From Streptobacillus ratti (GTDB taxonomy: Bacteria > Fusobacteriota > Fusobacteriia > Fusobacteriales > Leptotrichiaceae): DNA of 36,988 nucleotides. A program made the translations under genes and the position numbers. The stretch lies in contig NZ_LKKW01000011.1 in the NCBI RefSeq assembly GCF_001891165.1, positions 1 to 36,988 on the forward strand, read 5' to 3'. Under the pieces are notes generated by a model that ran no database searches, had not been told where the DNA came from, and saw only the letters and a program-made list of their open reading frames with translations. How positions within the stretch are numbered: position 1 is the first letter of the stretch; each line of letters begins with the position of its first letter. This document shows positions 1 through 1,381 of this stretch, one piece after another.

Positions 1-1183
1 CCTTATTATTTACTGTATCGCTTCCTATTAATCTTAAAGTGTCATTATTTCCATTACTAGTTATATTACCAGTTACATTGTCTATAGATTTTATCGTAAC
101 AATAGTTTCAGACATTCCATCTTTTTCTAATGTTAAATTACCCTCTAATGTACCGTTTTGTAAATCTACTCTTAATAAATGAAATTTTTTGGTTTTTTTT
201 ATCGGATGTTCATCATCATAATGAACAATATTTATATTACCTTTAATTCTACCATTATTTTCTATTTTCCCCTTTACAGTATAAAGATTAAATTTCCCAC
301 TATTTTCTATATTACCAAAATTTTGAAAATTTAATTCTTCAGAAGAAACAAATATGTCTTGTGTTTTAATCTTACCAGTTTTTGTGTTTATAAAATCAAT
401 TCCAATTTCTAAATCTATCTCTCCAGTCATTTCATTTTCAATTATATTAGACTCTATTTCACCAGAATTTACAAATGAATATTTTGACATAGTTCTAGTA
501 AAAATTCTTTCTACTTTAATTTTTCCCTCATTCTTAAAATCTAAACTACCCTCATGGGCTAAAACATATAACCTACCAGTTAATAATCCTGTCTTTCTAT
601 TTATTAAACTTACTTTATTAAGTCCATGTACTGAAGTATGTCCCTCTATTGTTCCAGCATTATCTAAAACTGTTAATTCTTCAGAAAAAAAGTTATTATC
701 CCTATAGTTATCACCTATTGAATTTTTTAATATTGCATCTTTTGAATTTTTAAAATATATATATTTTGACCTTAAATTTATTCCTTCTTTATTAGTATCA
801 ATTTTTTTATTATTTAAAATATATATTAAATTTGAATACCCCTCTTCACCTATTTTATCAAATCTAACAAATTTAGTATCTTTTTCAATTAAAATGTTTG
901 TATTATTTACAATTTTTAAACTATCTGGTATTTCATTAGTCTCTGAATATATGTTATTCTCTCCAGAAGTTGTATAATCTTTATTAAGTTCAATATTTAC
1001 TTTTTCTTTATCACCTATGTGAACTTTATCTTTTGGATCTTTAATAGTTTTATCATACTTAATTTCTTTTTCAATATCATGTATTTTTTTGATATCTTCA
1101 TTTATTCTATCATCAATTGTTTCAGCATTAGCCAAAATCGACATAAAAAAAATGATACTCCTAACATACCAATTTTTACTCAC
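1..1183 (-). CDS. Autotransporter-like secreted surface protein, N-terminal part (runs off window)
   Basis: This open frame has no stop from position 1183 to the window edge, giving 394 codons. It starts at GTG (1183), with AGGAG six bases upstream. Residues 1-20 form a signal peptide (basic start, hydrophobic core IIFFMSILANA, predicted cleavage after ANA before Glu21). After a charged stretch the protein is built of short, irregular Asn/Gly/Ile-rich units of the form 'N-x-G-x-I' (for example NAGTIEGH, NEGKIKV, NSGEIES, NFGNIENSGK, NNGRIKGN). This pattern is typical of beta-helical passenger domains of type V autotransporters. The C-terminal beta-barrel would lie outside the window, so the class is inferred. 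The protein is probably exported to the cell surface and may act in adhesion or immune interaction. Its promoter carries a homopolymeric tract, which suggests on/off or graded expression. Confidence 0.75.
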   Translation of the reverse strand, partial: MSKNWYVRSIIFFMSILANAETIDDRINEDIKKIHDIEKEIKYDKTIKDPKDKVHIGDKEKVNIELNKDYTTSGENNIYSETNEIPDSLKIVNNTNILIEKDTKFVRFDKIGEEGYSNLIYILNNKKIDTNKEGINLRSKYIYFKNSKDAILKNSIGDNYRDNNFFSEELTVLDNAGTIEGHTSVHGLNKVSLINRKTGLLTGRLYVLAHEGSLDFKNEGKIKVERIFTRTMSKYSFVNSGEIESNIIENEMTGEIDLEIGIDFINTKTGKIKTQDIFVSSEELNFQNFGNIENSGKFNLYTVKGKIENNGRIKGNINIVHYDDEHPIKKTKKFHLLRVDLQNGTLEGNLTLEKDGMSETIVTIKSIDNVTGNITSNGNNDTLRLIGSDTVNNK

Positions 1184-1221
1184 AACTTTCTCCTTTTTTT
1201 CCTTTTTTAATAACTCTAAAC

Positions 1222-1250
1222 ATTATACCCCCCCCCCGATATTTTGTCAA
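1222..1250 (-). promoter_or_regulatory. Sigma-70 promoter with G10 tract in its spacer (phase-variable type)
   Basis: On the minus strand the consensus -35 TTGACA (1250-1245) and consensus -10 TATAAT (1227-1222) are separated by exactly 17 bp. Seven of those bases are AAATATC and ten are consecutive G. Transcription would start near 1215, about 30 nt before the GTG start of the autotransporter-like gene. Gain or loss of a single G would change the spacer from its optimum, as known for Neisseria porA/opc and Haemophilus hif promoters. Confidence 0.85.
1228..1237. repeat. Homopolymeric C10/G10 tract
   Basis: Ten consecutive C on the plus strand (G10 on minus). It is conspicuous because the flanking DNA is almost pure A/T. 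It lies wholly inside the promoter spacer and is a likely slipped-strand mispairing site. Confidence 0.95.
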
Positions 1251-1381
1251 TAGCTTTATGTGAAATTTTTATGCAATCTTTTAATCCACTTCAATATATA
1301 TTTCATAAATCTTTACATAAATATAATATAATTGATTTTTTTCCATTAATATTGTATTATAATATTTATTTGGAGGTATTT

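Follow-up and report, generated by a model that had tools for sequence, protein, structure and literature searches.

A poly-G tract in the promoter spacer of a Streptobacillus ratti autotransporter-family gene, a candidate phase-variable promoter and one member of a genome-wide set

In Neisseria meningitidis, a poly-G tract lies between the -10 and -35 elements of the porA promoter and its length sets transcription, as described in PMC7864442; a homopolymer tract in the meningococcal opc promoter gives transcriptional phase variation (PMC3960869). The OmpW-like gene tp0126 of Treponema pallidum also carries a poly-G between -35 and -10, with length-dependent transcription (PMC7864442). Here we describe a site of this layout in Streptobacillus ratti (Leptotrichiaceae, Fusobacteriota). 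It occupies positions 1222-1250 on the minus strand of a window of 36,988 nucleotides (nt), which is the entire contig C11 of genome G000 (1.43 Mb, roughly 27% G+C), and lies upstream of a gene of the autotransporter family. A first interpretation of this window, made from the letters without database searches (the sequence-only reading), had proposed a phase-variable promoter. The G tract in the spacer speaks for this proposal, and so do related promoters whose main difference is the number of G; the switching itself is proposed from sequence. We consider it very probable that the site is a phase-variable promoter like that of meningococcal porA.

Read 5' to 3' on the minus strand, the -35 hexamer TTGACA (1250-1245) is followed by AAATATC and ten G (GGGGGGGGGG, 1237-1228) and then by the -10 hexamer TATAAT (1227-1222). 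The corresponding plus-strand letters are ATTATA (1222-1227), C10 (1228-1237), GATATTT (1238-1244) and TGTCAA (1245-1250). Direct reading confirmed the earlier statements that both hexamers match the consensus perfectly and that the spacer (1228-1244, AAATATC plus G10) measures exactly 17 nt. In the first 3 kb of the window this is the sole site with 12 of 12 hexamer positions. The G10 homopolymer (1228-1237, minus strand) is the proposed slippage site. Dinucleotide shuffles of the window predict 0.04 runs of eight G, counting both strands, and the only such run observed in the window is that of this promoter, which bears out the claim that such a tract is improbable by chance.

The features of porA-type promoters found for this site are a homopolymer inside the -35/-10 spacer, a length that differs between otherwise matching copies and a surface-protein gene directly downstream. 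As in porA, the G tract is located in the spacer before an outer-membrane protein (OMP) gene; however, Neisseria has one such promoter, whereas Streptobacillus has 20-36 per genome with perfect or near-perfect hexamers, known here from sequence. In T. pallidum, poly-G likewise occurs in the promoters of several outer-membrane genes, namely tp0126 and tprE/G/J/L (PMC7864442), but phylum and proteins are unrelated and the set in that account is smaller than the Streptobacillus set. The opc promoter shares a homopolymer of the G/C type, but its poly-C overlaps the -35 region (PMC7864442), and a version with C in place of G was found in 0 of 98 Fusobacteriota genomes. A homopolymer upstream of a surface adhesin gene also alters the transcript level of Spy1336/R28 in Streptococcus pyogenes (PMC7098570); in contrast to the sites described here, it is a poly-T, intergenic between divergent genes and restricted to a single locus.

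The G10 tract of the window is one member of a genome-wide set, which the sequence-only reading had missed. A search of the whole S. ratti genome with the promoter pattern revealed 13 matches, compared with 0 for the reversed pattern. All 20 tracts of at least eight G in this genome sit in spacers behind TTGACA, with G and never C on the coding strand and a total spacer of 16-21 nt; their -10 hexamers are TATAAT (12), TATACT (7) and TCTAAT (1). Of the 20 tracts, 19 precede genes for exported surface proteins with signal-peptide-like N-termini. Seven of these 19 encode trimeric autotransporters with YadA head, stalk or anchor domains (Pfam), six are members of the window gene's family, four encode small OMP-like proteins of about 180 amino acids (aa) with an aromatic final residue, and two are of other types. 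Besides these 20, promoter L170 combines G6 with a spacer of 12 nt, and only a few shorter tracts (G4-7) were present in the loci retrieved. The sole poly-G promoter of this genome that precedes a protein without obvious signal peptide is L185 (C52:4015), which has TCTAAT as -10 hexamer and a weak DUF308 match.

In the complete chromosome of S. moniliformis (G001, 1,662,578 bp), 36 of the 38 tracts of at least nine G are located behind TTGACA. A G tract lies upstream of 16 of its 24 YadA-anchor genes; two others (L213, at 1,631,701 and 1,640,872) have TTGACA and TATAAT/TATACT at 16-17 nt with the G tract interrupted or absent, and are possibly locked versions. All 38 tracts have G on the leading strand (all plus before 0.63 Mb, all minus after 0.90 Mb), and GC skew agrees with this assignment in nearly all regions. 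The leading-strand share of other genes in the sampled regions was 139 of 168 (83%; nominal p about 0.0007 vs the tracts). The placement may follow the usual bias of expressed genes or may favour tract stability. A fourth species (G003) has YadA-anchor genes in comparable number (15), yet one promoter only with at least eight G and perfect hexamers. Across the Fusobacteriota the G-tract promoter is present in 11 of the 98 genomes, with one or two per genome beyond Streptobacillus.

The remaining two S. moniliformis tracts fall within the coding regions of OMP-like genes, in one case in the signal peptide. At L207 (minus-strand offset 1082, about 1,437,810), G9 stands in the signal-peptide codons and the gene is in frame at G9; from its position this tract would be a translational, not a transcriptional, switch. 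At L209 (minus-strand offset 1066, about 1,496,826), a homologue of L178 carries G9 in its coding sequence; this homologue looks decayed because it is also frameshifted elsewhere upstream.

Tract length was compared between lineages and paralogues, with one genome per species, in 17 promoter pairs (between species or paralogues, not all of them independent) that share at least 94% identity over the 120 nt after the -10. Thirteen of these 17 matched pairs have unequal numbers of G, and 13 of 17 have no indel in the 120-nt flank. The sharpest pair comprises L195 of S. moniliformis (G10) and L170 of S. ratti (G6), whose flanks are identical over 60/60 and 120/120 positions (180/180 nt). L198 and L203, paralogues on the complete chromosome of S. 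moniliformis, have the same downstream 120 nt and show G9 vs G11; L175 and L190 differ as G11 vs G9. Tracts of equal length were found in the pairs L196/L229 and L174/L190. The nearest paralogue of the window promoter, L176, has the same G10, preceded by AAATATCGT to give 19 nt, so that its spacer is 2 nt longer; the next 120 nt are identical. These comparisons strongly support spacer slippage between lineages, in the pattern expected of slipped-strand mispairing. A candidate for variation within a strain, the duplicated contig ends L227 (G10) and L237 (G9), was rejected, as these are separate loci with differing upstream sequences.

In the mechanism that we propose, a sigma-70-type RNA polymerase would recognise TTGACA and TATAAT, and Gs of the tract would be gained or lost through slipped-strand mispairing at replication. 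Each gain or loss would alter the distance and the helical phase between the hexamers and so turn transcription of the autotransporter gene up or down. Independent slippage at about 20 promoters (36 in S. moniliformis) would then produce combinatorial surface variation. We infer promoter activity, switching inside a clone and an effect of length on expression, and presume an immune or adhesion benefit.

The sequence-only reading took ten G (17 bp) as the ON state, with reduced expression at nine or eleven. This assignment is not supported by the spacers of the genus. Among 78 poly-G spacers of Streptobacillus, which span 12 to 22 bp in total length, 17 nt was found in 11, 18 nt in 21 and 19 nt in 26 (18-19 nt together in 47 of 78), and the nearest paralogue of the window promoter has 19 nt. 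At the same loci, TTGACA/TATA(A/C)T pairs that lack a G tract, which are few and putative promoters, peak at 16-17 nt (11 of 17). An unrelated rabbit-gut Bacilli genome displayed a mode of 19 for its poly-G spacers (13 of 20). G-tract DNA tends to adopt an A-like geometry in which the rise per base pair is smaller, and 18-19 bp of it may therefore be as long as 17 bp of other DNA. The length giving most transcription is probably, with some uncertainty, 18 or 19 bp rather than 17. Slippage would then be real and only the state wrongly assigned: the 17-bp G10 of the window would be a reduced state, and a gain of one or two G would raise expression. We lean slightly towards this account, which is a variant of the phase-variable promoter and not an exclusive alternative to it. 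It has to be set against the report that T. pallidum tp0126 is best at 17 nt (PMC7864442), against the consideration that tracts in a genome need not be in the ON state, and against the small number and unproven nature of the non-G comparison promoters. Poly-G spacers outside Streptobacillus look two-peaked among the matches listed, with 24 sites at 15-16, four at 17 and 42 at 18-19; these peaks could represent different lineages, or genomes whose spacers happened to be shorter or longer than an optimal 17 when sampled.

The window promoter would drive a surface-protein gene. A GTG at 1183 starts a frame of 394 aa (2-1183, minus strand), the N-terminal part of a classical (type Va) autotransporter-family protein that is cut by the contig end; the ribosome-binding site AAGGAG (1190-1195, minus strand) was identified by inspection 6 nt 5' of the GTG. 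The N-terminus VSKNWYVRSIIFFMSILANAETIDD is signal-peptide-like, and the signal-peptide feature of type Va autotransporters is present as MSKNWYVRSIIFFMSILANA (both by inspection). A Pfam scan of the 394-aa fragment revealed no match. However, the 868-aa product of L168 in the same genome is 45% identical to the window protein over about 400 aa and matches PF03797 (Autotransporter beta-domain) and PF18883 (AC_1, autochaperone domain). The window gene is assigned to the autotransporter family because of this identity to a protein that carries the beta-domain; its own PF03797 region would lie beyond the contig end. The L168 gene is also preceded by a promoter with G9 in the spacer. The earlier claim of a surface autotransporter gene downstream is supported at the level of the family, through L168.

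Immediately 5' of the -35 hexamer lies AAAAATTTCACATAAAGCTA (1251-1270, minus strand), which is common to several paralogous promoters in a by-eye alignment of L175, L176, L179, L180 and L168. It might mark where a duplicated cassette of promoter and gene begins, or act as an upstream promoter element. Further along the window, a divergent gene at 1382-2560 was read by eye as a gltS-like permease gene. A search for a positional orthologue of the window promoter on the gltS side in three relatives found none, with homology ending at window position 1296 or beyond. Next to gltS, S. moniliformis has rplU and no autotransporter, which indicates that the adhesin cassette of the window is a lineage-specific insertion or rearrangement.

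Several points weigh against phase variation at this site. The window promoter has no positional orthologue to compare, S. moniliformis having rplU beside gltS. No compensation was found between the G and non-G parts of the spacers (p about 0.8), so this comparison does not provide separate evidence that total spacer length is under selection. Tract variation is known here from the comparison between lineages with one genome per species, and homopolymer counts from the short-read assemblies (146 and 820 contigs) can be wrong, although for S. moniliformis the complete chromosome is available. The completeness of this chromosome bears on the suspicion that the length differences are assembly or sequencing errors, which the draft status of the short-read assemblies and the closeness of many tracts to contig ends would encourage. 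Since G9 and G11 with identical downstream flanks occur in that chromosome (L198/L203), and since differences of 2-4 G (L175/L190, G11 vs G9; L195/L170, G10 vs G6) are beyond usual miscounts, we judge error to be highly improbable as the explanation.

An alternative is a strong promoter that is in effect constitutive, with a G tract too stable to be of consequence and slow drift behind the differences between species. It would agree with the pairs of equal length (L196/L229, L174/L190) and with differences being known between lineages, not within a strain. It does not account well for long G tracts in a genome of roughly 27% G+C that all stand in one position and nearly all before surface genes, or for tract differences that outnumber flank indels. 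The identical-flank promoter with G6 instead of G10, whose 12-bp spacer is expected to be inactive, also argues against it, and drift would not repeatedly recreate runs of at least eight G solely at promoter spacers; this explanation is quite unlikely. The tract could alternatively serve mainly as a structure or protein-binding site (a G-quadruplex, or the target of a regulator that reads spacer geometry), and the genes behind it would then form a coordinated surface regulon without random switching. The constant location of G on the coding strand, the uniform hexamers and A-rich bases after the -35, an upstream TTTCACA common to several copies and the action of a CRP homologue with poly-G at Treponema tpr promoters (PMC7864442) are in line with such a role. 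A fixed binding site would not tolerate a spacer range of 12 to 22 bp, however, and the upstream stretch is common within paralogue groups only. We regard a mainly structural role as unlikely, although both roles together are compatible.

GTDB genomes were also scanned for perfect hexamers with at least nine G. Among the matches listed, most lie in metagenome-assembled genomes (MAGs) of gut Clostridia, Bacilli and Saccharibacteria. Among these matches, the first gene after a poly-G promoter encodes a hydrophobic N-terminal segment in 50 of 65 cases; for consensus promoters of other kinds the figure is 3 of 16 (Fisher p 3e-5). Ten of their proteins were scanned; five have BspA-type leucine-rich repeats, and the others are Ig-like, choline-binding or have a weak cell-wall-anchor match. 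The rabbit-gut Bacilli MAG (L078/G098) contains 20 TTGACA-N-Gn-TATAAT promoters, and a gut Firmicutes genome (G102, L093) has seven, of which six are spaced at intervals of about 4 kb along a single contig. The C-tract version was absent from eight genomes outside Streptobacillus. The poly-G promoter device appears from these matches to have arisen or spread several times. A broader proposal is that TTGACA-N-Gn-TATAAT constitutes an unrecognised adhesin switch that evolved repeatedly in host-associated bacteria (Streptobacillus; gut Bacilli, Clostridia and others), with repertoires of 20-36 genes that would vary independently in transcription and a G tract that would shift the working spacer to 18-19 bp; to us it seems evenly balanced between true and false.

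The mechanism is already known from porA and tp0126, but its genome-wide use in Fusobacteriota appears to be undescribed, and the present set appears notable for its scale and its host phylum. Our search of the literature on Streptobacillus and phase variation revealed no relevant report, and titles and abstracts on Fusobacterium revealed no spacer-tract autotransporter, in agreement with the sequence-only reading, which was aware of no such description for a fusobacterial autotransporter. In the excerpted text of a survey of fibrillar adhesins, S. moniliformis tops the list by the fraction of fibrillar-adhesin-like proteins (21 proteins, 1.47%; PMC8286594); this text treats proteins, not promoters. 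The listed adhesins, which were not matched one by one, are probably largely the genes behind the G tracts. No account of how the fibrillar-adhesin-like genes of S. moniliformis are regulated was found in the literature.

The natural promoters with spacers of 12-22 bp lend themselves to testing how promoter strength depends on the length of the spacer and the geometry of its G tract. Comparable sets in uncultured gut Firmicutes suggest that surface variation of this kind is widely overlooked. If most adhesin genes of S. moniliformis sit behind independent slippage promoters, one culture would be a mixture of surface types, which would bear on serology, vaccine candidates, host adhesion and strain comparison in this agent of rat-bite fever.
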